DNA of 47,040 bases from a virus. The stretch spans positions 1 to 47,040 of IMG/VR virus record IMGVR_UViG_3300023192_004492. The stretch is one strand, 5' to 3'. Positions 3,893 through 46,455 of the stretch are shown piece after piece (the first letter of the stretch is position 1; the number at the start of each line of letters is the position of its first letter). Both the position numbers and the translations under genes were made by a program. Below the pieces are notes generated by a model that saw nothing but the letters and a program-made list of their open reading frames with translations, was not told where the DNA came from and made no database searches.

Positions 3893-5008
3893 ATGGCACA
3901 TAAAAAAGAAATGAGAGCGGGAAAGCTAAGTATTGTTCAAATGAGGAGTTTGATTAATAAAAAGGCAGGAATGGCAGTTGCGCATGACTTGAACGATGAA
4001 ACAAACCCAACAAATGTAACTGATTGGATCCCTACTGGCTCTCGTTGGCTTGACAGTATTGTTTGTCGTGGCAAGTTGGCTGGAATTCCTATAGGGAAAA
4101 TTACAGAAATTGCTGGACTCGAATCCGCTGGGAAATCTTATATGGCGGCTCAAATTGCTGCAAATGCCCAGAAAAAAGGAATTGATGTTGTTTATTTTGA
4201 TTCTGAATCAGCTCTAGATAATAATTTTCTTGCTCGTTTAGGGTGTGAAGTAGATAATATTTTATACATTCAAGCCATTTCTGTTGAATTCGTTTTAGAA
4301 ACCATTGAAGACCTTCTCAAGTCAAACAACAATAGAATGCTTTTTATATGGGACAGCTTAGCTCTAACACCCGCTATCTCTGACATTGAGGGAGACTTTA
4401 ATCCTCAGTCATCCATGGCAATGAAAGCACGTATTCTATCAAAAGGAATGTCAAAGTTGGTAGTTTCAATTGCAAATGCTCAATCCACTTTTTTGGTTTT
4501 GAATCAGCTGAAAGCCAATATTACTCGTTCTCCAGCTGAAGCGCTTACAACACCTTATATGACACCGGGTGGCAAAACATTGATTTATGCTTATTCGCTG
4601 CGAATTTGGCTTACTCGTCCAAAAGCAAAGGCTTCTTTTGTTTGTGATAATAAAGGTTATCGTATCGGTAACACAGTTAAAATAAAACTTGAAAAATCAC
4701 GTTTTGGCTCTCAAGGCAGGCAATGTCAATTTAAAATTCTGTGGGGAGATCACGTTGGGGTTCAAGATGAAGAAAGTTGGTTTGATGCCATTCAAGGTTC
4801 AGATAATTTGACCCGGCATGGTGCTTGGTATGAACTTTTCTATGAAGATGGAACAATAGAAAAGTTTCAATCTTCTAAATGGGTAGATAAAATTCAGGAT
4901 GAAAAATTTAAGAAGCGTGTAATAGAAATTATGGATGAAGAAATTATTATGAAGTTTGATAAAAGAATTGGAAAAGCTGATAACTTTTATGAAGTTGAGG
5001 AAGCTTAA
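3893..5008 (+). CDS. uvsX: RecA/UvsX-type recombinase
   Basis: ATP-dependent strand exchange in recombination-dependent replication and repair. The RecA core is complete: Walker A GLESAGKS at residues 75-82, a DSESAL segment after the second strand (RecA DAEHAL), Walker B MLFIWDSLA, the LNQLK segment preceding loop L2, and TPGGKTLIYAYSLRIWL, equivalent to the RecA PGGxALKFxxSxRL segment. At 371 aa it is close to T4 UvsX (391 aa). It belongs with the gp32-like protein at 2500 and the helicase at 7650. Confidence 0.9.
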   Translation: MAHKKEMRAGKLSIVQMRSLINKKAGMAVAHDLNDETNPTNVTDWIPTGSRWLDSIVCRGKLAGIPIGKITEIAGLESAGKSYMAAQIAANAQKKGIDVVYFDSESALDNNFLARLGCEVDNILYIQAISVEFVLETIEDLLKSNNNRMLFIWDSLALTPAISDIEGDFNPQSSMAMKARILSKGMSKLVVSIANAQSTFLVLNQLKANITRSPAEALTTPYMTPGGKTLIYAYSLRIWLTRPKAKASFVCDNKGYRIGNTVKIKLEKSRFGSQGRQCQFKILWGDHVGVQDEESWFDAIQGSDNLTRHGAWYELFYEDGTIEKFQSSKWVDKIQDEKFKKRVIEIMDEEIIMKFDKRIGKADNFYEVEEA

Positions 5009-31806: not shown

Positions 31807-32268
31807 GTGGTGTTGTATGTATTTCTTTTTTTATTAGCGTTTGTATACTCAAGCCTATTAGAATGGATGGTACATAAATATATATTTCACGGCATAGGTA
31901 AAAATAAAAAAAGTACCTTCAGTTCTCATTGGCATATCCATCATAGACTTTGTAAAAAAAACAATTTTAAAGATGAGTGCTATATTCAAACACCTCTTCA
32001 TTTTTCAGTGAAAAAAGAATTAACTTCTTTATTATTATTAGTTATAATACACCTTCCATCACTTTTTATCAGTTGGTTTTTTTATGCCAGTTTAATCTTT
32101 TTTTCTGCTCGTTATTTCTATTTACATCGTAAGTCCCATGTAGATATCGAGTGGGGTAAAAAGAATTTACCTTGGCATTATGATCATCATATGGGCAAAA
32201 GCCAAGATGCTAATTGGGGAGTAACAAATCCTCTCTGGGATTACATTTTAGGAACTCGTGTCAAATGA
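31807..32268 (+). CDS. fatty acid hydroxylase / sterol desaturase-like membrane enzyme
   Basis: A 153-aa integral membrane protein with the histidine clusters of di-iron hydroxylases: EWMVHKYIFHG, HWHIHHR, HRKSHVD and WHYDHHMGKSQDANWG, followed by the family ending NPLWDYILGT. Hydrophobic helices lie at residues 1-17 and near 75-97. It could hydroxylate membrane lipids or carotenoids. Rare in phages, so it is an auxiliary metabolic gene and likely host-derived, though its base composition is not different. GTG start after GAGGG. The 142-base gap upstream (31665-31806) shows no gene I can support. Confidence 0.8.
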   Translation: MVLYVFLFLLAFVYSSLLEWMVHKYIFHGIGKNKKSTFSSHWHIHHRLCKKNNFKDECYIQTPLHFSVKKELTSLLLLVIIHLPSLFISWFFYASLIFFSARYFYLHRKSHVDIEWGKKNLPWHYDHHMGKSQDANWGVTNPLWDYILGTRVK

Positions 32269-32477
32269 AAGATAAAAAGATCGAATTGAAAATTGGCGAT
32301 TTAGTGAAATATAAACATCCCAGAGGCTTTTTTTCTAATGATACGGCATATAAGAATATTTTTGGCGTGATAACATGTATTCAGGGTACTTTTCATGCAA
32401 AAGTGTTGTGGGTAGATGAATTACATTGTTTAGAAAGCTTTGAAGATCTTTCTCCTTGTGGAGAAACTAATTATTAA
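32265..32477 (+). CDS. SH3/KOW-like small protein (GDLV family)
   Basis: A 70-aa member: KIGDLVKYKHP, then FGVITCIQ, AKVLWVDEL and a final FEDLSPC. It has the same strand order as the array at 43.3-47 kb. ATG 32265 overlaps the hydroxylase stop (ATGA); a longer frame from 32214 is out of keeping with the family. Confidence 0.65.
   Translation: MKDKKIELKIGDLVKYKHPRGFFSNDTAYKNIFGVITCIQGTFHAKVLWVDELHCLESFEDLSPCGETNY
32466..32476 (+). promoter_or_regulatory. ACTAATTATTA element, copy 6
   Basis: Overlaps the end of the SH3-like gene, 27 bases before ATG 32504, with GAGGGG between them. Confidence 0.45.
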
Positions 32478-35258: not shown

Positions 35259-35453
35259 ATGGCTAAAATAAAAGTGGGAAATTTAGTAGATCAACGCGAA
35301 GGGTCCAAAGAAAATGGACTTGTATTGGAAATAAGTTATGAAGAAAGTCCTATAAAAAACGACCCTCCTCATCTTTATGAATATGCCATGATAAAGTGGA
35401 CTGATGGGACAAAACAAAAAATAAAAACCTCTTTTCTTCATAAAAAGTCTTGA
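35259..35453 (+). CDS. SH3/KOW-like small protein (GNLV family), leaderless
   Basis: A 64-aa family member: IKVGNLVDQ, GLVLEISYE, YAMIKWTDG and a closing basic strand. Has its own consensus promoter, with the -10 five bases before the ATG. Function unknown; this is the only SH3-like gene here that has a promoter of its own by sequence. Confidence 0.65.
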   Translation: MAKIKVGNLVDQREGSKENGLVLEISYEESPIKNDPPHLYEYAMIKWTDGTKQKIKTSFLHKKS

Positions 35454-35819: not shown

Positions 35820-35835
35820 GAGGGATTTAATTAAA

Positions 35836-36060: not shown

Positions 36061-36287
36061 ACATAGAAACTACGACCACCCCTAAGCCTGAGAAAGTTGT
36101 TATTAAGTGTCCTGAATGTACCGAAACTTTCCTTCGGGAGGAAATAGAGGAAAACACAATAGAATGTTCCTGTGGCAATTTAATTTTAGAGCTAAAAAAG
36201 AAAGAGAACGCCTCAAAGGAGCCTTTTTTCTTAACAGTAGGGTATATTAGAGAAAAACCCTCTTTTATTGTAACAAACGAAAGTTAA
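36054..36287 (+). CDS. small zinc-ribbon protein (77 aa)
   Basis: CPEC (residues 19-22) and CSCG (38-41), spaced by about 15 residues, form a zinc ribbon; a Lys/Glu helix and a beta-rich tail follow. Start overlaps the previous gene. Nucleic-acid or protein binding is possible. Confidence 0.6.
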   Translation: MVDIETTTTPKPEKVVIKCPECTETFLREEIEENTIECSCGNLILELKKKENASKEPFFLTVGYIREKPSFIVTNES

Positions 36288-36296
36288 AAAGGAGAA

Positions 36297-36638: not shown

Positions 36639-36655
36639 AAAAATAAAAATATAAT
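36627..36655 (+). promoter_or_regulatory. sigma70-type promoter
   Basis: TTGACA (36627-36632), 17-base spacer, TATAAT (36650-36655), with AAAAGG before ATG 36684. Confidence 0.72.
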
Positions 36656-36683
36656 ATAAGAAACCAGTAAGAAAAGGCTTCTA

Positions 36684-37292
36684 ATGAAAAACCGCCTCAA
36701 CATTCTTTTTAAAAAAGGTACAGAAAACGGTACACTAAATAAATGGGAGATTAGTTTTCTTCAATCGATTCTTTCTCAAGTAGAACATCGGGATCTTAGT
36801 GTTAAACAAAACAATTGGCTCCAAAAAATTGAAAAAAAAGTAAATGATTCATATGATGAAAACTGGGAAAAAGAATGGAATGAGGAAAAAGCCTTCAATC
36901 TTCAAATAGTTGCAGCTTATTATGCCCACGGCGGCATCTATTTTCAAGACATTATACATTGGATTGACGAAAACCCCACTAAGATTATTAACAAGTATAA
37001 CTATAGAAAGTTAGTAGAAAATAAATATGCGCAGAAAATAATCAAAGCCTTAAATGACCCTCCCCGTTACCAAGCTGGGGAAACGGTGGCTATACGTGGA
37101 AATGCAAGCTTGCCTAGAGGAGTTCGTTACAGCACCACAAATAAACTTCTTTTTGTCATCAAGCCTTTGGACAAAGCAATCTCTGCAGTAAAAGGGGCGC
37201 GTGTATATCTTGTTCTTCCCGCAGCTGGTGTGACTCCTTTTGAAATTGAGGAGCGGTGGCTAAAAAAACATCGTATAAAAAATAAAAAATGA
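36684..37292 (+). CDS. 202-aa phage protein with helical N-terminus and beta C-terminus
   Basis: Residues 1-60 (LNKWEISFLQSIL, LSVKQNNWLQKIEKKV) form a helical segment common in marine phage proteins, with unknown role. The central AAYYAHGGIYFQDIIHWI and YAQKIIKALNDPP are helical; the last 70 residues are beta-rich (AGETVAIRGN, LLFVIKPLD, ARVYLVLPA), perhaps an SH3-like barrel. Own promoter upstream and a promoter for the next gene downstream. Confidence 0.6.
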   Translation: MKNRLNILFKKGTENGTLNKWEISFLQSILSQVEHRDLSVKQNNWLQKIEKKVNDSYDENWEKEWNEEKAFNLQIVAAYYAHGGIYFQDIIHWIDENPTKIINKYNYRKLVENKYAQKIIKALNDPPRYQAGETVAIRGNASLPRGVRYSTTNKLLFVIKPLDKAISAVKGARVYLVLPAAGVTPFEIEERWLKKHRIKNKK

Positions 37293-37321
37293 TTGACATT
37301 TGATACAGATCGTGAGACAAT
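37293..37321 (+). promoter_or_regulatory. sigma70-type promoter before the zinc-knuckle gene
   Basis: TTGACA (37293-37298), 17-base spacer, GACAAT (37316-37321). The -10 is weaker than the others. AAGAGG precedes ATG 37360. Confidence 0.55.
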
Positions 37322-37359
37322 ACTTAGAGAAGCTAAAATAATATCTAAGAGGCAAACGA

Positions 37360-38022
37360 ATGGCTTGGAATAATACAGTGCGATGTTCTTATTGTTATCT
37401 AACTGGGCATAACCGCCGGAGCTGTAAGGAGCTTAAAAAACATATCCAAGATTATCCCGATAGTTATCAGGCACGCCAACACAAAACTTCACTGGAGCAC
37501 CACCAACCTCGCCGCTGTACTTACTGTTTTTGCACTGGTCACAACCGTCGCACATGTGATGTACTACTTTCTGATACAGCATTCTTTAAGGTCCACCTAT
37601 CTAAGCAAAGAGTGGCGTATCGTGAAAAAATGATTGCCGCTGGCATGGGTATTGGATCTTTAGTAGCATGGCAAGAAAAAGCAGGGCAACAAAAGACTTA
37701 TTTAACCTTGCTTACAAGTATTCCATGGGCACAGGTTGGTTCCATAGATACGGTGAACTATTTCCTCTTCAAGCATGTTAATCTAGCCGAGGCAGCCCCA
37801 GCCGGTGGTGCTCGCAGATTTCCTGTGAGCTTCTTAGCTTCGGAGCAATCAGAGCATTATATACGTTATACCTATAAGGTGTACAATCCTCTTTCAGCAG
37901 AACAGATTGATGCTAATATCCCATCCGAGTGGTTGTCTGGAGTTTTAATGGACAAGAACAAGATGTTTGTATCGGGAGAGCCACGCACGTGGTTTTTTAA
38001 CGAGAACAATTCTCTTGACTAA
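37360..38022 (+). CDS. double CCHC zinc-knuckle protein
   Basis: A 220-aa protein with two zinc knuckles of the CX2CX4HX4C form: CSYCYLTGHNRRSC and CTYCFCTGHNRRTC, near residues 9 and 52. This is the arrangement used for RNA or ssDNA binding in retroviral nucleocapsids and cellular CNBP-like proteins; it also occurs in some large phages. The remainder (AAGMGIGSLVAWQEKAG, then alpha/beta) is not recognised. The next gene's promoter begins right after its stop. Confidence 0.75.
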   Translation: MAWNNTVRCSYCYLTGHNRRSCKELKKHIQDYPDSYQARQHKTSLEHHQPRRCTYCFCTGHNRRTCDVLLSDTAFFKVHLSKQRVAYREKMIAAGMGIGSLVAWQEKAGQQKTYLTLLTSIPWAQVGSIDTVNYFLFKHVNLAEAAPAGGARRFPVSFLASEQSEHYIRYTYKVYNPLSAEQIDANIPSEWLSGVLMDKNKMFVSGEPRTWFFNENNSLD

Positions 38023-38036
38023 AGAGAGTAATTTTC

Positions 38037-38065
38037 TTGACTTTTAAAAAGAAATAAGATATAAT
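38037..38065 (+). promoter_or_regulatory. sigma70-type promoter before the MoxR gene
   Basis: TTGACT (38037-38042), 17-base spacer, TATAAT (38060-38065); AAAGGG lies before ATG 38098. A second TTGACT at 38015 belongs to the end of the previous gene and has no -10. Confidence 0.72.
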
Positions 38066-38097
38066 AGTTATAGTAATCATCTCAAAAGGGATTGAAA

Positions 38098-39156
38098 ATG
38101 TCTGTTGATTTTAAAACGTTTCGCCTCTGCGCTCCTCACGTAATCAATGTTCGTAAACCTATTCTTCTTCGTGGTCGGCATGGCATTGGAAAATCTGAAG
38201 TGGTGTATCAGATAGCAAAGGATTTAGAACTTCCCGTCATCGAACGCCGTGCTTCTCAAATGACTGAAGGTGACTTATTGGGGATGCCCTCGCCAGAGCA
38301 AATTGAGGTTAATGGCGAGCGTGCAAGTGTTTTTCGTCCCTTTGAGTGGTTTCTTCGTGCATGCACGGAACCTGTCTGTCTTTTTCTTGATGAGGTAGAT
38401 CGGGCAACCATAGAGGTGCGACAAGGCATATTTGAGTTGACCGATTCTCGCAAGCTCGCAGGCTGGACTCTTCACCCGGATACCATCGTCGTCGCCGCTA
38501 TTAATGGAGGGGAACATGGCGCGCAATATCAAATTAACGATATGGATCCCGCTGAATTAGACCGTTATACGGTTTTTGATATTGAACCCACGGTTGAAGA
38601 TTGGTTGGATTGGGCAAGAGAAAGTGTACACCAGCTGGTGTGGGATTTCATTAACCACAATCGTGCGCATCTGGAGCATCTTGAGGAATATGAGCCAAAT
38701 AAGATTTATCCCTCTCGTCGGTCATGGAAACGCTTAAGTGATTGTCTCGCAAAAGGCAATCTTTTTGAAGAAACAGCAGACCAAGCTGTGTTTTTTAATC
38801 TTTCTACGGCATTTGTGGGCTTTGAAGCAGCGGTTTCTTTTCTGGACTTTTATAAAGCATATGACCGGCAAGTCACGTGGGAAGAAATTATTAACGAAGG
38901 AAAGATTGAAAAGGCAGAAAAGTTTGATATTAACGAGCACAGCGCCATGGTAGAAAAGCTGGACGCCGCCAACGTATTTAGCACTCAAATGAGTGAAAAA
39001 CAACTTGATAATTTAGCTTCTTATTTCAAGACTCTTCCAGCTGAAGTAGCGATGAAATTATGGCACCATGTGGGAAAACAAGAAGGGAACGAAACAAATA
39101 ATATTGTTCAATTTCATGCGCGTGTTCGCGAAGCTTTAACTAAACTTCTGAGTTAA
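38098..39156 (+). CDS. MoxR-type AAA+ ATPase
   Basis: A 352-aa ATPase: Walker A GRHGIGKS (residues 25-32), Walker B CLFLDEVDRA (near 94), sensor IVVAAINGG, and arginine-rich ELDRYTVF as in MoxR/RavA-type enzymes. MoxR ATPases act with VWA-domain partners to load or remodel metal-containing or multi-subunit complexes. The next gene encodes exactly such a partner. ATG 38098 follows AAAGGG; an in-frame TTG 38092 is less likely. Both genes have their own promoters. Confidence 0.88.
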   Translation: MSVDFKTFRLCAPHVINVRKPILLRGRHGIGKSEVVYQIAKDLELPVIERRASQMTEGDLLGMPSPEQIEVNGERASVFRPFEWFLRACTEPVCLFLDEVDRATIEVRQGIFELTDSRKLAGWTLHPDTIVVAAINGGEHGAQYQINDMDPAELDRYTVFDIEPTVEDWLDWARESVHQLVWDFINHNRAHLEHLEEYEPNKIYPSRRSWKRLSDCLAKGNLFEETADQAVFFNLSTAFVGFEAAVSFLDFYKAYDRQVTWEEIINEGKIEKAEKFDINEHSAMVEKLDAANVFSTQMSEKQLDNLASYFKTLPAEVAMKLWHHVGKQEGNETNNIVQFHARVREALTKLLS

Positions 39157-39160
39157 AGTC

Positions 39161-39189
39161 TTGACTTTTTAATAATAAAAAAGTATAAT
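39161..39189 (+). promoter_or_regulatory. sigma70-type promoter, nearly leaderless VWA gene
   Basis: TTGACT (39161-39166), 17-base spacer, TATAAT (39184-39189). Expected start about 39196, three bases before ATG 39199; no Shine-Dalgarno is present. Confidence 0.72.
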
Positions 39190-39198
39190 GGATATACG

Positions 39199-40434
39199 AT
39201 GAACAAAAAACAAAACAAAAAAGAATTTAATATTGAGCATCACATAATTGGCTTATTACAGGACGAACCATTCTTTGCTGCTTTGAGTCGTAGAATTAAT
39301 AAATACAAAAGCAGGGCTATTCCCACGGCAGGGGTACGAGTAAATAAAACCACAGCTCAATTTGAAATGATTTATAATCCTGATTTTTTTGTTCAGCTAA
39401 CCCGTGAGGAGCGATTAGCGGTATTAAAGCATGAATTTTATCATTTGATTTTTGGACACGTTACCGGACGCAAGCCGGAAAACTTGGATAATAGATTGTG
39501 GAACTTTGCTACCGATTTAGCAATTAATTCTCATATTGATAATCTTCCCAAGGCGTGTTTGAAAGCTGGGGTGGGGGCGTTTGCAGCATTCCCCCCTGAA
39601 TTAGCTGCTGAACAATATGTTAAACTCTTGGAGAAAATGGATGAAGGCAAAGGCAAAGAAAAAGAAAAAACTGGTGAGGATACTGATTCTAGCGGGGGAC
39701 CATGTTCACCCGGTGATGGTATACCATCCGAGGGACAATTTGATAGTCACGACGAGTGGTCTTCCGATAGCGCGGACCCCTTGGATCATCAAATATCAGA
39801 TATTGCAAATGAACGCTTAAAAGACTTTATCAAGGAAGCGGCAAAAGAAGCTCAAGTAAAGGGATGGGGCACTGTAACTTCTCAGATGCGAAAAGATATC
39901 ACAACCAAGCTGCAGTCCAAGGTAGATTGGAAGAAGGTGCTGCGTTATTTTGTGAAAACCAGCACTCGTTCAAATCGGTCGAGCACGGTAAAGAGATTAA
40001 ATAAACGCTATCGTTATATTCATCCAGGTAAGAAAGTTAACCGTACTGCTTATATTGCTGTTAGCATTGATCAATCAGGCTCGGTAAGCGAATCGATGCT
40101 TGAAGCTTTTTTTGCTGAATTAAGTAAATTGTCGGATTTGGCTAGTTTTACAGTGGTGCCTTTTGACACCAAGGTTGACCCGAATCTCGTTTATGAATGG
40201 AAGAAAGGACAAAAATTAAATGCAAAGCGTGTCATGTGCGGTGGCACTGATTTTGATGCACCAACTAAATACGTAAATGAAAATAATTTTGATGGTCATA
40301 TCATTTTGACCGATATGGCGGCTCCGAAGCCGGTTTCATCTAGATGCCAACGTATGTGGATGACTACTAAAGAATGCTTACGATATCAATATTTTCAAAC
40401 TAATGAGCGTGTTATTACGATTGACTCACAATAG
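39199..40434 (+). CDS. putative metallopeptidase-VWA protein, MoxR partner
   Basis: A 411-aa protein with two parts. The N-terminal LKHEFYHLIFGHV (HExxH, near residue 78), with NFATDLAINSHID, matches the DUF2201-type putative metallopeptidase domain; an acidic linker (KGKEKEKTGEDTDS) follows. The C-terminal 130 residues are a VWA domain with MIDAS DQSGS (near 291) and TDMAAP. This pair (MoxR ATPase plus metallopeptidase-VWA) is common in bacteria and occurs in large phages; its phage function is not established. Its mRNA is nearly leaderless. Confidence 0.85.
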   Translation: MNKKQNKKEFNIEHHIIGLLQDEPFFAALSRRINKYKSRAIPTAGVRVNKTTAQFEMIYNPDFFVQLTREERLAVLKHEFYHLIFGHVTGRKPENLDNRLWNFATDLAINSHIDNLPKACLKAGVGAFAAFPPELAAEQYVKLLEKMDEGKGKEKEKTGEDTDSSGGPCSPGDGIPSEGQFDSHDEWSSDSADPLDHQISDIANERLKDFIKEAAKEAQVKGWGTVTSQMRKDITTKLQSKVDWKKVLRYFVKTSTRSNRSSTVKRLNKRYRYIHPGKKVNRTAYIAVSIDQSGSVSESMLEAFFAELSKLSDLASFTVVPFDTKVDPNLVYEWKKGQKLNAKRVMCGGTDFDAPTKYVNENNFDGHIILTDMAAPKPVSSRCQRMWMTTKECLRYQYFQTNERVITIDSQ

Positions 40435-40474
40435 AGGCTTTTAGTGGTCTTCGCAACAAGTAAGTTTTCTTTAA

Positions 40475-40485
40475 ACTAATTACAA
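40475..40485 (+). promoter_or_regulatory. ACTAATTACAA element, copy 7
   Basis: In the 55-base gap after the VWA gene, four bases before ATG 40490; no Shine-Dalgarno. Confidence 0.5.
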
Positions 40486-40489
40486 TAAG

Positions 40490-41224
40490 ATGCAGAAACT
40501 ATTTGAAAATTGGCGCAGATTTCTAACAGAGAAACCAGATGAAATAGCTAATAAAATAAAAGAAATAAAGTTTAATTCAGCTTCGGCTTTAAGTGTTTTT
40601 AGAGATAATGGCACTTTAGCCGAAGAAGAAACTAAAATATTTGATTATGAAATTAGTTTAGCAGAAAATCCTGATGATACTCTTGTTCAAAGATTTGATG
40701 AATCTTTATATAGCGGTAAAAAAACAGGATTTTTATCACCTTATTCTCCTAATGAATTAAGAATGATGGATTTATACCTATTACGTGGACACAATGCTGG
40801 ATTTGCCATCAAAGATGGTGATGATATCGTTAGTGTTCATAATAATTCAGAATTATCTGGTCTAGCTCGCGAATTTATGAGAAAAGCTAAAGAAGTAGGC
40901 GGGGTCAGGTTGGATCATTTTGATGGCTTTTTAACCGGATTGTATAAAAAATATGGATTTACTAATGTATATGAGATTTACCAATGGGATGAACAATATG
41001 CGCCTTCCGAATGGAGCTTCGAAGGTGTTAGCGTTTTAAACCCAGCTACCAGTGTATATGCTCAGGCATTGGATGAAATAACGTTTGAGGATCCAGAAAC
41101 ATTGCCCAATAAAACCATAGAAGTTTTAGCGGAAAGTGGTTTAAAGCTTGACATTAATCCAAGTTTGAAATATAATAGTTACAAGTATGGTCGTCCCGAT
41201 GTAATTATGAGAAAATTAGCTTAG
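40490..41224 (+). CDS. 244-aa protein with putative capsid-targeting N-terminus and GNAT-like C-domain
   Basis: MQKLFENWRRFLTEKPDE is nearly identical in pattern to the starts of the proteins at 29916 and 32504 and offers an LTE|K processing site. Residues 90-180 (LLRGHNAGFAIKDGDDIVSV, SGLAREFMRKAKEVGG, LDHFDGFLTGLYKKYGF, WDEQYAP) look like the acetyltransferase-like domain of phage proteins with LDxFDGFLxGFYxxxGF and YAP motifs. The substrate is unknown. If packaged and injected it could modify host targets, comparable in logic to T4 Alt. Confidence 0.65.
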   Translation: MQKLFENWRRFLTEKPDEIANKIKEIKFNSASALSVFRDNGTLAEEETKIFDYEISLAENPDDTLVQRFDESLYSGKKTGFLSPYSPNELRMMDLYLLRGHNAGFAIKDGDDIVSVHNNSELSGLAREFMRKAKEVGGVRLDHFDGFLTGLYKKYGFTNVYEIYQWDEQYAPSEWSFEGVSVLNPATSVYAQALDEITFEDPETLPNKTIEVLAESGLKLDINPSLKYNSYKYGRPDVIMRKLA

Positions 41225-41236
41225 ACTTAGAAAGAA

Positions 41237-41491
41237 ATGTATAAAGTACACAATGGATGTTATCTTGAAGTAGAAGAAGTGGTTGCAATGTGGTCCGAAA
41301 AATACAGCAACCCAAAGCTAGACCAAGAATGTTACCTGGCAAAGGTCTTATTAAGAAACAATTCAACTATTTTAACTATTGCCACTTATCCCACCAAGAA
41401 AGAAGCTGATGAGCTTATCAGCAAGATATCCACAAAATATTTAACTTTTCCACGACAATCTGATTGCGATAGGGGCGAAAGACAAGGATAA
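41237..41491 (+). CDS. small protein (84 aa), unknown
   Basis: MYKVHNGCYLEVEEV, then an alpha/beta segment (CYLAKVLLRNN, IATYPTKKEADELIS) resembling a small barrel followed by a helix. The stop overlaps the next ATG by one base (TAATG). No family recognised. Confidence 0.55.
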   Translation: MYKVHNGCYLEVEEVVAMWSEKYSNPKLDQECYLAKVLLRNNSTILTIATYPTKKEADELISKISTKYLTFPRQSDCDRGERQG

Positions 41492-41760
41492 TGTTGAAGA
41501 TACGACATCGTATGTTCCCTTGTTATTTTATTTGGAGAGATCCAAAAGAAAGCTTCGAGAATTTAAAAAAGCATATTCTTAAAGATATTAAAGAAAATGA
41601 TTTTGATAGTTATGTTTTTGAAGAATATCGCGATGAAAAAAAGCAATTAGAAATGAAGAATAGACAACTCGAAAAACACATTGAATTATTAACTTTAGAA
41701 CTAAACACTCTCAAGGGAAAGAAAGTAAAGGAGGCTTCACACAATGAAACCACAACTTAA
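41491..41760 (+). CDS. coiled-coil protein (89 aa)
   Basis: A coiled-coil segment (DEKKQLEMKNRQLEKHIELL) follows a short globular start with two aromatic/Cys positions. Overlaps both neighbours. Unknown function. Confidence 0.5.
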   Translation: MLKIRHRMFPCYFIWRDPKESFENLKKHILKDIKENDFDSYVFEEYRDEKKQLEMKNRQLEKHIELLTLELNTLKGKKVKEASHNETTT

Positions 41761-42019
41761 TTTTGAAGAAGGAGACATTGTTATCAGGCGCGTCTCAAAC
41801 GGATGGATCGTCTTTTCTAATTTAGAGGATTGGTATGAAGCGGATCATTTTATGGCGTCAGTGTATGAAGAGGGCAAAACAGAATGGGGCGAGCAGAAAG
41901 CCCTGATTAGTCTTCTCCGCGAACATTTTTCCGATTTAGTCCAATCAAAAAAGAGGGGTGGCATAAAGCTAGAAGTGCGGGAGAAAGGATACTCAGACGA
42001 GGAAGATAATGCAGGGTAA
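41744..42019 (+). CDS. small acidic protein (91 aa)
   Basis: EEGDIVIRRVSNGWIVFSN begins with a possible SH3-like strand pair similar to the GDLV family; the rest is helical and acidic. Overlaps its neighbours by 17 and 11 bases. Unknown function. Confidence 0.5.
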   Translation: MKPQLNFEEGDIVIRRVSNGWIVFSNLEDWYEADHFMASVYEEGKTEWGEQKALISLLREHFSDLVQSKKRGGIKLEVREKGYSDEEDNAG

Positions 42020-42203
42020 GTTCGATTTAGTAGAAGAGATCCAAAATGACGACGGGACTTGGAATCTTGTTTTTGATGTAGATGATGAATTTCAGGAATG
42101 GTTCAAGAGGTGGCAAGGGCTCAAGAGGTGGAGCCATAAAAGATTCCAGAAAATATTTTATATAGCAATAACAGATGCTATCGAACAATGGGAAGAACGA
42201 TGA
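42009..42203 (+). CDS. small acidic protein (64 aa)
   Basis: NLVFDVDDEFQEWFKRW and a helical C-terminus. Follows the previous gene with an overlap; its stop overlaps the next ATG (ATGA). Unknown function. Confidence 0.5.
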   Translation: MQGKFDLVEEIQNDDGTWNLVFDVDDEFQEWFKRWQGLKRWSHKRFQKIFYIAITDAIEQWEER

Positions 42204-42301
42204 GAACGACAGGTCTCAAGACAATCTATTTGACGATTCCTGAGTTGAAAGAGGCAGAATCAGAGATTATTTGCGTCACAGATAAAGAAACTAAAAACTA
42301 A
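42200..42301 (+). CDS. 33-aa micropeptide
   Basis: Starts in an ATGA overlap and encodes MRTTGLKTIYLTIPELKEAE plus a short Lys/Thr tail. It ends inside the ACTAATTACAA element. Coupling is the only support. Confidence 0.35.
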   Translation: MRTTGLKTIYLTIPELKEAESEIICVTDKETKN

Positions 42302-42307
42302 TTACAA
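42297..42307 (+). promoter_or_regulatory. ACTAATTACAA element, copy 8
   Basis: Four bases before ATG 42312 of the Fe-S carrier gene, in the same arrangement as copy 7 (ACTAATTACAAtgagATG versus ACTAATTACAAtaagATG). Confidence 0.5.
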
Positions 42308-42311
42308 TGAG

Positions 42312-42632
42312 ATGAATATCACAACAAAAGCAATTGCAAAAGTACAAGAAATGGCTATTAAACAAAATTTAGCGGATCATGGTCTACGAATATTCGTTGT
42401 GGGTGGTGGATGTTCGGGGTTTAGCTACGACATGGATTTTGACGAAGGCGAAAAGCCCGGCGACTTTGTATTCGAAGAAGGCGGTCTCAAAATCTTCGTC
42501 GATCCCATGAGCTTTCAGTATTTGGACGGCACCAAAGTCGACTACATCGAGTCCTTCAAGTTCTCGGGGTTTCATTTCGAAAACCCCAACGCGACCAGCA
42601 CGTGCGGTTGCGGTTCGTCTTTCGCCATATAA
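42312..42632 (+). CDS. A-type Fe-S carrier, HesB/IscA/ErpA family
   Basis: Carries and delivers iron-sulfur clusters. The three conserved cysteines are present: GGCSGFSY (first) and CGCGSSF (last two) at the C-terminus; length 106 aa is normal. From about 42425 the codons are distinctly GC-rich (many C/G third positions), unlike the AT-rich neighbours, so this gene was probably acquired recently from a GC-richer bacterium. The first 100 bases look phage-like. It follows an ACTAATTACAA element. Confidence 0.93.
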   Translation: MNITTKAIAKVQEMAIKQNLADHGLRIFVVGGGCSGFSYDMDFDEGEKPGDFVFEEGGLKIFVDPMSFQYLDGTKVDYIESFKFSGFHFENPNATSTCGCGSSFAI

Positions 42633-42642
42633 ATAAAACCAC

Positions 42643-42671
42643 TTGACCTTATATGAAATTTAATGTATTAT
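42643..42671 (+). promoter_or_regulatory. first of two tandem promoters before the tRNA
   Basis: TTGACC (42643-42648), 17-base spacer, TATTAT (42666-42671). Located in the 153-base gap between the Fe-S carrier gene and the tRNA. Confidence 0.6.
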
Positions 42672-42692
42672 GTATGTATCGGGCACAAGGGG

Positions 42693-42721
42693 TTGACACT
42701 TGAAATTAAATGAGCTAATAT
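42693..42721 (+). promoter_or_regulatory. second tandem promoter before the tRNA
   Basis: TTGACA (42693-42698), 17-base spacer, TAATAT (42716-42721), about 60 bases upstream of the tRNA. A 12-codon open frame at 42730 lies within the leader and is unlikely to be a gene. Confidence 0.6.
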
Positions 42722-42785
42722 AATAATTATGAATGTTTTTGCGATTGAAGGGCGAAAAAGCATTTGATATTGTATAAACAAACAT

Positions 42786-42858
42786 ACTCCCGTAGCTCAG
42801 TTGGAAGAGCAAGCGGCTCATAACCGCCAGGTCGTAGGTTCAAGTCCTACCGGGAGTA
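42786..42858 (+). tRNA. tRNA with CAT anticodon (Met, or Ile with modified C34)
   Basis: Complete cloverleaf of 73 bases: acceptor ACTCCCG/CGGGAGT, D-arm GCTC-AGTTGGAA-GAGC, anticodon loop CTCATAA (CAT), T-arm GTAGG-TTCAAGT-CCTAC, discriminator A. CCA is not encoded. The 1-72 pair is A-T, so it is not an initiator-type tRNA in the usual bacterial sense. The 27-43 pair is mismatched (A/C). It may be elongator tRNA-Met or tRNA-Ile(CAT, lysidine-modified); the sequence alone does not settle this. Confidence 0.93.
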
Positions 42859-42880
42859 CTTTTTAAAAAGGAGAAAAATT

Positions 42881-43033
42881 ATGTTAGAAGTTTTGTGGAT
42901 GCCACTTACCGCTCTTGTCGTAGGATTAACAGTTTATGTTCATAATACCGTAAAAGCAGAAGAACGATTAATAGCTATAGAAAAGACGATTAATAGCATA
43001 GAAGAGCGCGAAAGATTACGCCGTAATAAATAA
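42881..43033 (+). CDS. 50-aa membrane protein with coiled-coil tail
   Basis: Starts behind AAAAAGGAG and encodes a membrane segment (LWMPLTALVVGLTVYVH) then a charged helix (EERLIAIEKTINSIEERERL). Order membrane-coiled coil is the reverse of the XhlA-like protein at 28063. A small holin or antiholin component is possible. It is clear from the Shine-Dalgarno and the well-formed helix. Confidence 0.6.
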   Translation: MLEVLWMPLTALVVGLTVYVHNTVKAEERLIAIEKTINSIEERERLRRNK

Positions 43034-43094
43034 ACTTAGAAATGCAAGTAGAAAGAGCAGCCAGAGAAATATTTTCACTTTTTGTTTTTTTTAC

Positions 43095-43123
43095 TTGACT
43101 TTCCCTTCCTTTTTTGAGATAAT
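43095..43123 (+). promoter_or_regulatory. sigma70-type promoter before the SH3-like array
   Basis: TTGACT (43095-43100), 17-base spacer, GATAAT (43118-43123). The sequence TTTTGAGATAAT around the -10 recurs in the promoter at 46427, suggesting duplication. It heads the operon that begins with the 58-aa gene at 43155. Confidence 0.7.
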
Positions 43124-43154
43124 GTTATTAGAAAAGAAAAAAGGAAAGACCCGC

Positions 43155-43331
43155 ATGTTTACTACCCCCAATCTTATTACAAATATTCAATCTTACGAAC
43201 GTGGACTAATGAAGGAAAAGGAAATGGTTGTTTTTTTTCAATACCTTCTCGATAGTGGCGTTATTAATCACCTTCAAGGACACTATGGGCGAGAAGCTAA
43301 ATGCCTTATTGAGGATGGTCTCTGCAAATGA
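43155..43331 (+). CDS. conserved small phage protein (DUF7417-like)
   Basis: A 58-aa protein: ERGLMKEKEMVVFFQYLLDSG then HLQGHYGREAKCLIEDGLC. The pattern (E-G, E, FFQ-L-DSG, LQGxYGRxAxxLIxxGLC) is a widespread phage family (DUF7417-like), function unknown. ATG 43155 follows AAGGAAAG; an earlier frame start inside the promoter is unlikely. The next ATG overlaps the stop. Confidence 0.78.
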   Translation: MFTTPNLITNIQSYERGLMKEKEMVVFFQYLLDSGVINHLQGHYGREAKCLIEDGLCK

Positions 43332-43546
43332 AGCCCGGCATCTTAGTTAAAACCAAAGGAGCAAGAATTGGAGTACCAGCCGGGACGGTTGGGTTGATTG
43401 TAGCAGTTCGTGCTCCCTCTGACCCTCATATATTAACTGCAAATGGGAATAAAGTGCTATATTATGATGTTGAAATTTGTGGGAAATATTCGCGCATAAT
43501 CCGCCGCATGGCGAGAGACTTGGAGATAATCAATGCAAGTCGGTGA
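43328..43546 (+). CDS. SH3/KOW-like array gene 1 (72 aa)
   Basis: MKPGILVKTKGARIGVPAGTVGLIVAV with a closing LEIINASR. A GTVGLIV strand pair and a final strand indicate the same small barrel as its neighbours. Its last five codons (N-A-S-R-stop) are read in another frame as the start of the next gene. It overlaps the DUF7417-like stop by ATGA. Confidence 0.68.
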   Translation: MKPGILVKTKGARIGVPAGTVGLIVAVRAPSDPHILTANGNKVLYYDVEICGKYSRIIRRMARDLEIINASR

Positions 43547-43682
43547 TTTGGTAAGGCGCAAGAGTACGGGGACTTTGCATATTGTTTTATCGGATTCCCC
43601 GTGGTTTATTTATCTTTCTGGGTTCCCTTCGAATCAAGTATTTAGCCGACGAGATGTGGAGGTAGTCAGTGCAAGTCGGTGA
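43533..43682 (+). CDS. SH3/KOW-like array gene 2 (49 aa)
   Basis: MQVGDLVRRKSTGTLHIVLS, WFIYLSG and a last strand DVEVVSASR. Shortest complete family member, entered through the shared 14-base overlap and left through the next copy. Below usual gene-calling length but supported by the array context. Confidence 0.62.
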   Translation: MQVGDLVRRKSTGTLHIVLSDSPWFIYLSGFPSNQVFSRRDVEVVSASR

Positions 43683-43851
43683 TTTAGTAAACTGTGTTTC
43701 GGCTCCCAGGAACATCATTGGACTTATTGTTAGCATTAAACCAAACGTGCATAGTGCTGTAACTAAGCAGTCAATTTTCAATGTGTTGCTTAATGGCAAT
43801 ATCTATCCATTCCGTTCTGATATGTTGGAGGTAGTCAGTGCAAGTCGGTGA
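43669..43851 (+). CDS. SH3/KOW-like array gene 3 (60 aa)
   Basis: GTG start in the shared overlap: MQVGDLVNCVSAPRNIIGLIV, then FNVLLNGN, DMLEVVSASR. Same strand pattern as its neighbours. Next boundary copy at its end. Confidence 0.68.
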   Translation: MQVGDLVNCVSAPRNIIGLIVSIKPNVHSAVTKQSIFNVLLNGNIYPFRSDMLEVVSASR

Positions 43852-43891
43852 AAAAGATTATTTTGAAGCAATCGAGAAAGGAACAAGATGA
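43838..43891 (+). pseudogene. 17-codon stub carrying the cassette start
   Basis: GTG CAA GTC GGT GAA AAA GAT... opens MQVGEKDYFEAIEKGTR then stops. The first 21 bases repeat nearly exactly at 44054 (the start of the GIY-YIG gene), 216 bases downstream. This looks like a cassette front cut off by the insertion of the 54-aa gene that follows; it may also serve as a leader peptide. Confidence 0.5.
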
Positions 43892-44052
43892 GTAAACAAC
43901 AACTTTATAAGATTATTCGTTTCTTTCGACAAAGTAATCATCTCAGCAGGGTCATCAAAAGAAACCTTACACTCGACGAAGCACAAGCGCATTGTCGGAA
44001 CCCGCTGACCCATAAAGAGGGTGAATGGTTTGACGGCTACGAAGCGCAGTAA
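43888..44052 (+). CDS. 54-aa conserved phage protein (HCxNP / WFDGYE type)
   Basis: MSKQQLYKIIRFF, then NLTLDEAQAHCRNPLT and GEWFDGYEAQ. The pattern (LxLxEAQxHC-x-P, WFDGYE) is a widespread small phage protein of unknown function. It begins in an ATGA overlap with the stub at 43838. It lies between two copies of the cassette start, which suggests it was inserted. Confidence 0.75.
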   Translation: MSKQQLYKIIRFFRQSNHLSRVIKRNLTLDEAQAHCRNPLTHKEGEWFDGYEAQ

Positions 44053-44053
44053 A

Positions 44054-44323
44054 ATGCAAGTCGGTGAAAAAGTTTGGTTCTTATATGTTGTTCGATGTAG
44101 CGATGACACGCTTTATACCGGCGTAACAACCAGTCCAGACCGTCGGCTTAAAGAGCATAATAAAGGTCGTCGCGGAGCAAAATATACACAATCTCGACGC
44201 CCAATTGATGATATGGTATTGCTTGACTGGTTTGTGGGTCGCTCTAGAGCACAAAAAGCAGAGCACAAGTTCAAAAAACTAACGCGAGAACAAAAGGAAA
44301 AAATCATTAATGCAAGTCGGTAG
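44054..44323 (+). CDS. GIY-YIG nuclease fused to the cassette boundary sequence
   Basis: An 89-aa nuclease of the UPF0213/YhbQ type: FLYVVRC (GIY position) and LYTGVTT (YIG position), RRLKEHN (catalytic Arg region), GAKYTQSRRP and AEHKFKKLTREQKEKI (catalytic Glu helix). The first five codons (MQVGE) and the last four (NASR) are not part of the family; they are the boundary sequence of the SH3-like array. It therefore sits as a captured cassette. ATG 44054 follows the stop of the 54-aa gene by one base; the longer frame from 44021 overlaps it. Confidence 0.88.
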   Translation: MQVGEKVWFLYVVRCSDDTLYTGVTTSPDRRLKEHNKGRRGAKYTQSRRPIDDMVLLDWFVGRSRAQKAEHKFKKLTREQKEKIINASR

Positions 44324-44501
44324 TTTAGTGCAACTTGGTCCCAACTACAAAAACAGAAATCGTTGGGCAATTGTAGCTAAAAGCGAAGATTGGAGTAGCC
44401 ATTGCACCATTGTATTTACAGATACATGTGAAAAAGTCGAAGCAATTAAATCGGGACTAATTGTTTATAGCAATTTAGAGAATAAAGATGCAAGTCGGTG
44501 A
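44310..44501 (+). CDS. SH3/KOW-like array gene 4 (63 aa)
   Basis: MQVGSLVQLGPNY, WAIVAKSEDW, TIVFTDTCEKVEAI, ending NKDASR. Entered through a boundary copy with TAG in place of TGA. Same family pattern; unknown role. Confidence 0.65.
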   Translation: MQVGSLVQLGPNYKNRNRWAIVAKSEDWSSHCTIVFTDTCEKVEAIKSGLIVYSNLENKDASR

Positions 44502-44679
44502 TTTAGTTGCGCATAAAAGCAATGGCGTATTGGGAATTATCGTAAAAGAGGTCCAATCACGAATTAATATGCTCGATGATAAGAATATAGAGGATGGTTT
44601 ATTTTCTATTACTTGGCTTGATGAAATAGGTTCTACAAATAATCATTGGCTGCACGAATTGGTAAAGATGAGCTTATGA
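44488..44679 (+). CDS. SH3/KOW-like array gene 5 (63 aa)
   Basis: MQVGDLVAHKSNGVLGIIVK, ITWLDEIGS and a Leu-rich end. Enters through the 14-base boundary; leaves by a plain ATGA overlap instead of the -ASR boundary. Confidence 0.68.
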   Translation: MQVGDLVAHKSNGVLGIIVKEVQSRINMLDDKNIEDGLFSITWLDEIGSTNNHWLHELVKMSL

Positions 44680-44834
44680 AAGTCGGTGATTTAGTAACCA
44701 AGCACATCAAGTATGAAAACGAAACTTTGTTTGGGGTTGTGCTCATGGTTGATGATGAAACAATTAAAGTTCACTGGAACAAGGCTTATGGAACATTTTG
44801 GACCCTTCAAAGAACAGTAAGAGTAGCAAAATGA
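44676..44834 (+). CDS. SH3/KOW-like array gene 6 (52 aa)
   Basis: MKVGDLVTKHIKYENETLFGVVLMVD, TIKVHWNKAYG. ATG 44676 lies in an ATGA overlap; the frame extends upstream to 44646, but the family start is MKVGDLV. Ends in an ATGA overlap. Confidence 0.65.
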   Translation: MKVGDLVTKHIKYENETLFGVVLMVDDETIKVHWNKAYGTFWTLQRTVRVAK

Positions 44835-45046
44835 AAGATATTAAAGTCGGTGATTTGGTACAAGTAAGAGCGGCGGATGACGGAATTGTATATGCTATTG
44901 GCATATATCTTGGGATAAAAAAAACATGGAAAGAGTGGCATAGAGTGCATGTTGTCCATCCTTGGCAACTAGCGAACGATTTTAAGGTAGCACAACTCTA
45001 TGATGAACCCTATTGGAAATTAGAGGTCATTAGTGCAAATCGGTGA
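44831..45046 (+). CDS. SH3/KOW-like array gene 7 (71 aa)
   Basis: MKDIKVGDLVQVRAADDG, AIGIYLGIK, RVHVVHPW and YWKLEVISANR. Ends through a boundary copy with one change (CAAATCGG, hence -SANR). Confidence 0.66.
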   Translation: MKDIKVGDLVQVRAADDGIVYAIGIYLGIKKTWKEWHRVHVVHPWQLANDFKVAQLYDEPYWKLEVISANR

Positions 45047-45212
45047 TTTAATAAAACTAAAACACGCCACCAACTTTATAGGAGTTATTATTAAATTACT
45101 ACCTTCCACACGAGGGCACGGCAAAGTTATACATTTATTGCGGCAGGGTCACGTATATAAAACATATGAAGTAGATGTAGAGGTAATTAATGGCAACAAG
45201 CTTAAAGCTTGA
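45033..45212 (+). CDS. SH3/KOW-like array gene 8 (59 aa)
   Basis: GTG start in the boundary: MQIGDLIKLKHATNFIGVII, then KVIHLLRQG and VDVEVINGN. Just below the usual size cut-off; supported by the array. Overlaps the next gene by 23 bases. Confidence 0.62.
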   Translation: MQIGDLIKLKHATNFIGVIIKLLPSTRGHGKVIHLLRQGHVYKTYEVDVEVINGNKLKA

Positions 45213-45378
45213 AATAAGCGATTTGGTAAAATATAAATATTCTCACCCTGATGTGTTAAAAGAAGGGCTTGTTATGGCGCTTAACGGTACAAAGTGGGTT
45301 AAGGTGCTGTGGTCAGATAAACTTATTACAGAGGAACACATAGACGACCTAGAAATTATCTATAATTCAGATAAGTGA
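45190..45378 (+). CDS. SH3/KOW-like array gene 9 (62 aa)
   Basis: MATSLKLEISDLVKYKY, GLVMALNG, VKVLWSDKLI, DDLEIIYN: same pattern with ISDLV in place of VGDLV. Ends in a GTGA overlap. Confidence 0.66.
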   Translation: MATSLKLEISDLVKYKYSHPDVLKEGLVMALNGTKWVKVLWSDKLITEEHIDDLEIIYNSDK

Positions 45379-45584
45379 AAGTTGGTGACCTTGTAAAAGT
45401 GAACATTCCCGAATCCTTAGCGGGTGAACACGCAGGAAGAATAGGAATTCTAGTACGCTATTTTGATGAAAAAACAGCACCGGGACAGTGGAACCCAAAA
45501 AAAGCTATATGGATAGTATCGTTTGCAGGTAAAATGGGCTATTTTTATGCCGATGAACTGGCAAATCTAAGCAAAAAGGACTAA
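45375..45584 (+). CDS. SH3/KOW-like array gene 10 (69 aa)
   Basis: MKVGDLVKVNIPES, GRIGILVRYFDE and WIVSFAGK. GTG start in a GTGA overlap. Last gene of the uninterrupted array; an inverted repeat follows its stop. Confidence 0.66.
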   Translation: MKVGDLVKVNIPESLAGEHAGRIGILVRYFDEKTAPGQWNPKKAIWIVSFAGKMGYFYADELANLSKKD

Positions 45585-45610
45585 AAATAGTTTAACAAAC
45601 TAAACTATTT
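45585..45610 (+). promoter_or_regulatory. 10-base AT-rich inverted repeat
   Basis: AAATAGTTTA (45585-45594) and TAAACTATTT (45601-45610), separated by 6 bases, form a perfect hairpin or palindromic operator in the gap between array genes. There is no T-tract after it, so a classical terminator is unlikely; it may be a protein-binding site or mRNA end. Confidence 0.4.
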
Positions 45611-45626
45611 AATCAAGGAGTTAAAA

Positions 45627-45848
45627 ATGAAAGTCGGTGACATGGTACAACTTAAAAAAATTAAGATAAACAAAGTCCCTTTTTTACGCTCGTATGGGGA
45701 CAAAATAGGAAGGATTGTGGCTGCGCAAGAAGCCTCTTCTAACAAAAAAGGCAATAAAACTGCTTTTTTTAGAGTAGTCTTTGAAAATACACGATTTTAT
45801 GAGGATTTAGCTGAATGGCGATTAGAAAAAGCTTCAAAAACATGTTAA
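45627..45848 (+). CDS. SH3/KOW-like gene 11 (73 aa)
   Basis: MKVGDMVQLKKIKINK, GRIVAAQE, FFRVVFENT and a Leu/Arg-rich end. It has its own Shine-Dalgarno (AAGGAG, 8 bases before the ATG), so it is the first gene of a new unit, and it overlaps the lipoprotein gene by 7 bases. Confidence 0.68.
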   Translation: MKVGDMVQLKKIKINKVPFLRSYGDKIGRIVAAQEASSNKKGNKTAFFRVVFENTRFYEDLAEWRLEKASKTC

Positions 45849-46192
45849 TAAAAATACTTTTATTTACACTTATAATAAGTGGATGTGCTATTGATATACC
45901 CTTAGATGAAATCGAGGTGCCTCCTATCAACTTAGTGATTAATTTAAGCGATGTAGGATTCTCTAATCTTACCCCTAAAATAGATGATGTCGCTCAAAAA
46001 GAAATAAAAGAATGTCATTTTAAATCGATGCCTGCCTATCAACTTTACGGGGGATATATTTCACATTGCGAAAAGAACTGCTGTACCTGGCGTTTCCCAG
46101 AATCTAAGCAAGTGTGTGAAGAAGAATGGTGTATGAGCGTTTATAATAATTGTGGTTGGAAGATGAATTCCTGGCAATGTAATAGTTATTAA
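45842..46192 (+). CDS. Cys-rich lipoprotein, paralogue B
   Basis: A 116-aa protein with a lipoprotein signal peptide (MLIKILLFTLIISGC, lipobox IISGC). The C-terminal domain CEKNCCTW, VCEEEWC, CGWKMNSWQC has the same Cys spacing as paralogue A at 35508 (CDAYCCVW, VCEEYWC, CGWELEQEIC). The linker is unrelated. Duplication with strong constraint on the Cys domain suggests a disulfide-stabilised surface module. The start is ATG 45842 (or ATG 45815, adding a basic MAIRKSFKN). Confidence 0.75.
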   Translation: MLIKILLFTLIISGCAIDIPLDEIEVPPINLVINLSDVGFSNLTPKIDDVAQKEIKECHFKSMPAYQLYGGYISHCEKNCCTWRFPESKQVCEEEWCMSVYNNCGWKMNSWQCNSY

Positions 46193-46196
46193 TAAG

Positions 46197-46283
46197 ATGT
46201 TTTGGTTTTATTTTGGTATAGCGACGTCGTTAATAATCGTTTGTATACTTGGTGTTTGCTGTAGTAAAGGCGATTGTAGCTAG
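46197..46283 (+). CDS. 28-aa membrane micropeptide with C-terminal cysteines
   Basis: MFWFYFGIATSLIIVCILGV followed by CCSKGDCS. A hydrophobic segment ending LGVCC resembles a lipobox. It starts 5 bases after the lipoprotein stop. Weak Shine-Dalgarno (AATAAG). Real expression is uncertain. Confidence 0.4.
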   Translation: MFWFYFGIATSLIIVCILGVCCSKGDCS

Positions 46284-46355
46284 ACGTATTCACGCTTGAA
46301 AAAGCTTTTCAGGTTTGAATCCTGAATATAATCATTTGCGCCCGATAGATAAATT
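46284..46355 (+). other. short non-coding stretch with two hairpins
   Basis: GCTT-GAAA-AAGC (46294-46305 region), a stem closed by a GNRA tetraloop, is followed by TTCAGG-TTTGAAT-CCTGAA, whose loop looks like a tRNA T-loop (TTTGAAT against canonical TTCRANN). No complete cloverleaf can be drawn, so I do not call a tRNA. Confidence 0.35.
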
Positions 46356-46430
46356 ATGGAATATGTTGGACTTTTTATACCTCAGATAGCTTTTTTGATT
46401 TTTATTCATTTTTCTGAAAAAAAAGCTTGA
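46356..46430 (+). CDS. 24-aa hydrophobic micropeptide
   Basis: MEYVGLFIPQIAFLIFIHFS then a basic end (EKKA). One membrane segment; no clear Shine-Dalgarno; the stop lies in the -35 of the next promoter. Low support. Confidence 0.3.
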   Translation: MEYVGLFIPQIAFLIFIHFSEKKA

Positions 46431-46455
46431 CTTCCTTTGCGAATTTTGAGATAAT
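46427..46455 (+). promoter_or_regulatory. sigma70-type promoter before gene 46482
   Basis: TTGACT (46427-46432), 17-base spacer, GATAAT (46450-46455), AAAGGAG before ATG 46482. Shares TTTTGAGATAAT with the promoter at 43095. Confidence 0.7.

Follow-up and report, generated by a model that had tools for sequence, protein, structure and literature searches.

A chain of small barrel genes in a phage genome fragment, joined by a shared coding junction and gained or lost as whole cassettes

Introduction

How might a phage store, express and exchange a large set of very small genes? The question is raised by positions 43155-45584 of a 47,040-nucleotide stretch of viral DNA (the window), which is the whole IMG/VR record IMGVR_UViG_3300023192_004492 and covers 47 kb of a larger phage genome. 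This region is a single chain of overlapping open reading frames (ORFs) whose sole break is a 1-bp gap. Ten genes of one SH3/KOW-like family lie in 43328-45584 (49-72 aa), with an eleventh at 45627, and many of them are joined by one short sequence that ends one gene and begins the next.

Small proteins of SH3/Tudor-like fold, whose function is mostly unknown, form the largest bacterial-virus-specific fold clusters, according to the available part of PMC12487901. The array suggests a way in which small barrel genes are kept, expressed and passed between phages, insertions and deletions having been caught between near-identical genomes. Its junction is easily recognised in DNA and could lead to hundreds more such genes, and a recombination-friendly gene boundary that codes on both sides makes it testable how mosaicism spares gene boundaries. 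With a probability of about 0.7, we consider the locus an array of interchangeable cassettes, shuffled by homologous recombination at shared coding junctions.

Results

Layout of the array

The family profile, a hidden Markov model (HMM) with the consensus MKVGDLVKLKSGGERGKVGIVVEIDEEEDGDGDVKVLWSDGEKVEWYSPRELEVISESR, gave 858 matches at E<1e-3 in forward ORFs and none at E<1 in reversed ORFs. On the plus strand, as for all features of the window written here as start..end, the family genes are located at 43328..43546 (72 aa, C-terminus LEIINASR; E 1.7e-4, 14 relatives, best 47% identity), 43533..43682 (49 aa; E 4e-8), 43669..43851 (60 aa; E 4e-9), 44310..44501 (63 aa, starting at the junction's TAG variant; E 0.009, 56% relative in locus L045), 44488..44679 (63 aa; E 8e-9), 44676..44834 (52 aa, starting with a 4-bp overlap; E 2e-8), 44831..45046 (71 aa; E 3e-6), 45033..45212 (59 aa, starting at the junction variant GTGCAAATCGGTGA; E 2e-5), 45190..45378 (62 aa; E 6e-5) and 45375..45584 (69 aa; E 3e-4, with a weak KOW match). 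The eleventh, at 45627..45848 (73 aa; E 7e-6), has a separate start with its own ribosome-binding site. An earlier reading of the DNA alone (the sequence-only reading) had proposed such a row of tiny genes of one family, and the near-unbroken overlapping chain bears it out. Its further members at 32265..32477 (E 2e-3) and 35259..35453 (E 2.5e-3), as well as the gene at 45627, are supported by the profile; those at 28667 and 36297 scored marginally (~10 bits), not above the GIY-YIG control (11 bits), and the candidate at 46967 is cut off by the window end.

The 14-bp junction RTGCAAGTCGGTGA is present exactly at 43533 (43533..43546, stop of the 43328 gene and start of the 43533 gene), 43669 (43669..43682), 43838, 44054 and 44488, with near copies up to 45640. 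At up to three mismatches, 15 matches were found against 4.1 +/- 2.1 expected, and no shuffle reached 15. The sequence-only reading placed this overlap at most junctions; the five exact copies are real, and the 14-bp overlap occurs at 6 of the 12 in-array junctions (43533, 43669, 43838, 44310, 44488, 45033). A plain 4-bp ATGA/GTGA overlap is seen at four (43888, 44676, 44831, 45375), and the remaining two are a 23-bp overlap at 45190 and the start at 44054, which follows the 1-bp gap.

The same reading had every cassette bounded by the same sequence. The junction is indeed shared, but its exact copies at 43838 and 44054 open non-family ORFs, so that passengers use it as well. The first of these is a 17-codon stub (MQVGEKDYFEAIEKGTR, 43838..43891), which runs by a 4-bp overlap into the next gene and resembles either a bridge for coupling or what is left of a cassette. 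The second is a GIY-YIG nuclease (44054..44323; PF01541, E 5.4e-14) with the junction-derived N-terminus MQVGEK and the C-terminus IINASR; this N-terminus is missing from GIY-YIG relatives with readable starts, those in L015 and L010 beginning otherwise. Between them lies a non-family passenger gene of 54 aa (43888..44052), whose 89% identical relative in L060 has a family cassette after it where the window has the GIY-YIG gene. The chain opens with a non-family gene of 58 aa (43155..43331), which overlaps the 43328 gene by 4 bp and has 25 relatives in the fetched loci.

Anatomy and DNA-level conservation of the junction

While exact copies of the 14 bases first noticed do exist, the conserved stretch is really ~30 bp long (TTGGAGGTNATCA-RTGMAAGTCGGTGATTTRGT). 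In the upstream frame it reads L-E-V-I-(S/N)-(E/A)-S-R-stop; in its downstream role it supplies the Shine-Dalgarno sequence GAGGT, the start codon and MKVGDLV of the next gene, the Shine-Dalgarno sequence sitting within the LEV codons of the upstream gene. About 80% of family members overlap the preceding ORF; the 14-bp TGA overlap accounts for 310 of 501 starts, a 4-bp overlap of ATGA type for 64 and a TAG overlap for 28. In the latter register, GTA gives a TAG stop at +7 and the upstream protein ends in LEVICK; 24 of the 28 cases come from one lineage (L069, L105, L118). As overlap is maintained with different stop registers, coupling has been kept despite the register change.

The glutamate of LEV is encoded by GAG and GAA in a ratio of 219:5, whereas the two codons are about equally frequent within gene bodies. 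For the V3 codon, the ratio of GTC to GTA is 215:42 in overlapped starts vs 64:70 in other starts (p 3e-13). This choice is neutral for the protein, since with either codon one frame reads Val and the other Arg, and genome-wide (long ORFs) CGG is as frequent as AGG. Junction variants are moreover homogeneous within genomes to a degree that no permutation reached (0/1000). Together, the GAG bias, the GTC bias and the within-genome uniformity point to conservation of the DNA itself, through recombination, selection on translation signals, or both. Discordant orthologs carried their own genome's junction variant in 38 of 62 cases, which is a weak test. Apart from this, on the minus strand of L018 (~5071-5110) the junction itself forms a 24-bp tandem repeat, in frame (GTGAAAGTCGGTGATTTGGTAAGAATGAAAGTCGG...), which may be a scar of slippage or recombination.

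Distribution among other genomes

The junction in an extended, 21-base form was found exactly in 39 stretches from 37 IMG/VR contigs, and 77 further loci were gathered via relatives of the neighbouring metallopeptidase/VWA protein. In total, 402 junction-like sites were counted in 122 loci. In 50 records, the junction pattern always lies on one strand per genome, with up to 21 copies; a reversed control pattern gave zero matches. Each of 12 large genomes (166-204 kb) has between 6 and 31 members by the family profile, many of which group in stretches of 10-20 kb, and the longest family runs comprise up to 10 members. After deduplication, 513 members with a median length of 61 aa fell into 354 clusters at 50% identity. 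The phages that carry the array are marine, uncultured and large (~165-205 kb), and form one clade; the array DNA showed no similarity to isolated phages in the collection searched, and a search with the family consensus against phage records returned no match.

Roughly 17% of the genes upstream of overlapped junctions are non-family (50/301 not recognised as family). Directly before junctions, these include GIY-YIG nucleases and a SWIM-like zinc-finger protein, the latter named from its sequence motif only, and in L122 the family array holds an ORF that resembles GTP cyclohydrolase II (identified by eye) and has the C-terminus ISESR. With unrelated genes found in it, the junction format can evidently accept non-family genes. 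The SWIM-like CxC..CxH protein (end ..RKCKHVEAQKNESR) recurs right before a junction in L006, L019, L073, L074, L078, L085, L086, L093 and L095, and the site after it is a recurrent cassette entry site. L122 is DQKQ01000147.1, a contig in a Flavobacteriales metagenome-assembled genome, which is a possible host lead or a mis-binned virus.

Gain, loss and synteny of cassettes

Cassette content was compared between relatives and differs, contrary to the identical content that would tell against exchange. In L095 and L117, the flanks are ~100% identical over hundreds of bp, and L095 has one extra whole cassette, whose two breakpoints both fall within one 20-bp sequence, ATGAAAGTCGGTGATTTGGT. At each of three junctions, one of L062 and L063 has a single whole cassette that the other lacks, and this goes both ways; further single-cassette insertions or deletions were found in the pairs L078/L074, L080/L074 and L093/L086. 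A GIY-YIG match was absent from the L095 and L117 loci examined.

For pairs of family cassettes at least 80% identical, neither neighbour was shared in 54% (33/61), vs 24% (37/154) for nearby small genes (p 4e-5), and both neighbours were shared in 15% vs 34% (p 7e-3). The linked fraction was 0.12-0.47 at overlapped junctions, 0.75-0.97 at mid-gene positions and 0.32-0.79 at other gene starts; on the downstream side, 9 of 42 overlapped junctions were linked vs 196 of 349 other gene starts (p 3e-5). The junction is thus a stronger version of a gene-start mosaicism seen throughout the region. The single-cassette gains and losses between close relatives and the broken synteny at junctions agree with the sequence-only reading, in which whole genes would be lost or exchanged with translational coupling kept.

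Recombination or ordinary mosaicism

In the explanation that we favour, each cassette would be one SH3/Tudor-like barrel of ~60 aa that begins and ends inside the shared ~30-bp coding junction. Since every copy of the junction consists of one DNA sequence, any two copies could undergo homologous recombination, which would insert, delete or replace one whole gene and leave the Shine-Dalgarno sequence, start, stop and translational coupling intact. Such recombination would most likely take place in co-infected cells through the UvsX pathway of the phage itself, and genomes would draw different sets from a shared cassette pool, occasionally with unrelated passenger genes in the same format.

Several points weigh against this explanation. 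Breaks at gene starts are common to all small genes of the region, so part of the mosaicism is ordinary; the DNA-level identity of the junction could partly stem from selection on translation signals; and upstream-side linkage, at 15/49 for overlapped junctions vs 169/407 for other gene starts, does not differ significantly (p 0.17). The pair counts are not phylogenetically independent, which makes the p-values indicative. All loci compared are metagenomic assemblies, and the insertion or deletion in L095/L117 depends on assembly quality, a caveat tempered by the missing cassette being unique sequence and the crossover repeat being just 20 bp.

The most serious rival is ordinary mosaicism combined with selection: illegitimate breaks would occur anywhere, only intact coupled products would survive, and the junction would be conserved for translation and not as recombination homology. 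The breakage of nearby small genes at their starts fits this, and the embedded Shine-Dalgarno sequence and the three overlap registers, with TAG at +7 largely confined to one lineage (24/28), indicate selection on coupling itself. Three observations run counter to it, however: the loss of both neighbours is about twice as frequent for family cassettes as for nearby small genes, the breakpoints fall inside 20 bp of shared identical sequence, and GTC is favoured 5:1 over the equivalent GTA in overlapped junctions only. We therefore regard mosaicism and selection as an unlikely, though not negligible, account of the array as a whole.

Source of the copies and selection on the genes

Members with a relative at least 60% identical numbered 2 within their own locus and 188 across loci, many more comparisons being possible across loci, and the best identity within a locus had a median of 38%. 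By these numbers, arrays look more like assemblies from a common pool than products of recent local duplication; the latter, which the sequence-only reading had allowed as a source of copies, finds little room in them. A history of tandem duplication and divergence, in which unequal crossing-over within one genome made the array and the junction represents conserved ends of paralogues, would explain why ends and fold are common to all cassettes, why runs reach 10 members and why the junction in L018 is tandemly repeated. Given the low within-locus identities (the comparisons within and across loci being unequal) and the non-family genes that occupy the same junction format, we consider it very improbable.

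Close pairs of family genes have a median dN/dS of 0.23, with no pair above 1, which indicates that the genes are real and constrained and gives no sign of ongoing hypervariation. Positive selection was accordingly rejected. A diversity-generating retroelement was likewise discarded, reverse transcriptase (PF00078) being found in 0 of the 12 large genomes. The idea of active diversification around a fixed frame, drawn earlier from the dissimilar inner parts of the genes, is not upheld by these results.

Recombination enzymes and promoters

The window encodes a UvsX-like recombinase (3893..5008; phrog_97, E 9e-54), a candidate engine of recombination at junctions, and a UvsX-like recombinase is present in all 12 large array-bearing genomes. 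Tyrosine recombinases (PF00589; control rings 14/14) and serine recombinases (PF00239) were found in 0 of the 12. Because UvsX is found in all of these genomes and neither recombinase type in any, homologous recombination between junctions would be the simplest route. GIY-YIG nucleases occur in 1 of the 12 genomes and 6 of 82 family-bearing loci, and GIY-YIG homing was rejected as the driver as too rare. An integron-like or homing system, in which a dedicated recombinase or endonuclease such as the GIY-YIG protein at 44054 recognises the junction, might draw on the position of that gene between two window junctions, on GIY-YIG genes right upstream of a junction in other loci and on the uniformity and strand-locking of the site, but is the least credible of the alternatives in view of the missing recombinases, the rarity of GIY-YIG genes and the nature of the junction as an asymmetric coding direct repeat with every copy on one strand.

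A sigma-70-like sequence with an extended -10 element (TTGACTT..TTTGAGATAAT) at 43095..43123 is the probable promoter of the array operon, as judged from its sequence; the element is repeated at 46427 (2 matches vs 0.00 expected). Across the family-bearing loci, 178 copies of TTGAC-N14-18-[GT]ATAAT lie on the gene strand vs 2 on the other. This strand bias suggests transcription by the host RNA polymerase, which would take place early. A promoter-like site was found upstream of the window array and none in its junctions, and no terminator-like site was found at any junction on the gene strand. The promoter set as a whole (window 35224-46455 and all family loci) is unusually dense and uniform, many of its members carrying TGAGATAAT.

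Predicted fold and function

AlphaFold models of two members, the window gene at 44488 (pLDDT 76.5) and the mobile cassette of L095 (pLDDT 89.6), are small beta-barrels of the same type, as the sequence-only reading had anticipated. The L095 model (L095:2593-2769) is five-stranded (E6-9, E20-28, E36-42, E47-49, E55-57), with a helical turn before the last strand, and the predicted fold is an SH3/Tudor-like barrel. Foldseek returned matches for the L095 cassette with a probability of 1.00 and E>=0.0018, no structural neighbour falling below E 1e-3; the neighbours (PetP, YorP, Tudor domains, HspQ, the UvrD/PcrA Tudor domain, CdnL) are generic to the fold. Many of the top structural matches in BFVD fall into a narrow, nameless block of UniProt accessions (A0A516L*/A0A516M*), perhaps from a small number of paralogue-rich viral genomes.

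The family consensus matched KOW (PF00467) with 22.9 bits at a cut-off of 22.3, and DUF2158 with E 9e-4. Single members rarely match any Pfam family, and only 2 of 92 matched KOW at E<=0.01. Defence-system models gave one weak match in 92 members, which was taken as chance. Net charges range from -12 to +12 with a mean of -0.6, and this distribution around zero speaks against one common nucleic-acid-binding role; a DNA- or RNA-binding role for all members was therefore not adopted. We tentatively propose, with slightly more doubt than confidence, that the cassettes may encode small binding proteins that are made early and differ in their host partners.

Other genes in the window

Other products encoded in the window, besides UvsX, are Pol III alpha, a DnaB-like helicase, an endolysin and a ribonucleotide reductase whose insertion domain is of the B12 type. 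The proteins at 35508-35819 and 45815-46192 are both small, Cys-rich and lipoprotein-like; their cysteine spacing is similar, and they are apparently paralogues. A HesB/IscA-like iron-sulfur protein at 42312-42632 is without a relative in the fetched loci.

Discussion

The preferred reading of the locus, interchangeable cassettes recombining at shared coding junctions, may be extended. The array could be an integrase-free cassette system, its standardised two-frame junction kept for trading barrel genes, each of which would act against a different host or defence target, thereby providing a quickly changed counter-host repertoire. This extension is speculative and rather doubtful.

An arrangement of this kind was not described in the literature searched, which was incomplete in coverage. 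In an integron, exchangeable genes that lack promoters of their own and stem from a common pool form an array behind a promoter. The array described here resembles it in each of these features, and differs in that 12 of 12 large genomes have no integrase; its junction is, as far as the consensus shows, an asymmetric coding direct repeat and probably not of the attC type with its inverted core repeats.

In fold class, the family can be set beside KOW and DUF2158 proteins and other SH3/Tudor-like barrels, including MotB of phage T4 with its KOW-like N-domain (PMC7827196), with which it shares a KOW-like pattern; a DNA binder would be expected to have a basic bias, which the family does not show. 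The likeness to the SH3/Tudor-like clusters of the Viral AlphaFold Database, put at ~1.3% of the proteins in bacterial structural clusters, is by fold class only, and the available part of that report covers neither genomic arrangement nor exchange mechanism (PMC12487901).

In cluster K mycobacteriophages, start-associated sequences (SAS/ESAS) precede the starts of unrelated genes by 3-7 bp (PMC3203893). There, too, many small non-structural genes have one short repeat in one orientation at their starts, although SAS do not code at both gene ends (PMC3203893).

The nearest precedent, by analogy and as far as the available portions of its literature extend, appears to be the shuffling of promoter early stem-loop (PeSL) elements in T4-type phages. 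PeSL cassettes were reportedly described by Arbiol et al. in 2010 and by Comeau et al. in 2014. They are mobile regulatory cassettes that consist of a promoter and a stem-loop between ORFs, to judge from the available parts of PMC4503421 and PMC3950731. On the same basis, the junctions described here would differ in that the repeat codes in two frames, with a stop/start overlap and an embedded Shine-Dalgarno sequence, inside one paralogous family, and in that it contains neither promoter nor stem-loop, promoters being separate. The array does share with PeSL a repeated element between small, probably early genes, at which gene content varies among relatives, and in both cases short repeats between small early accessory genes would supply the homology for shuffling among related phages.

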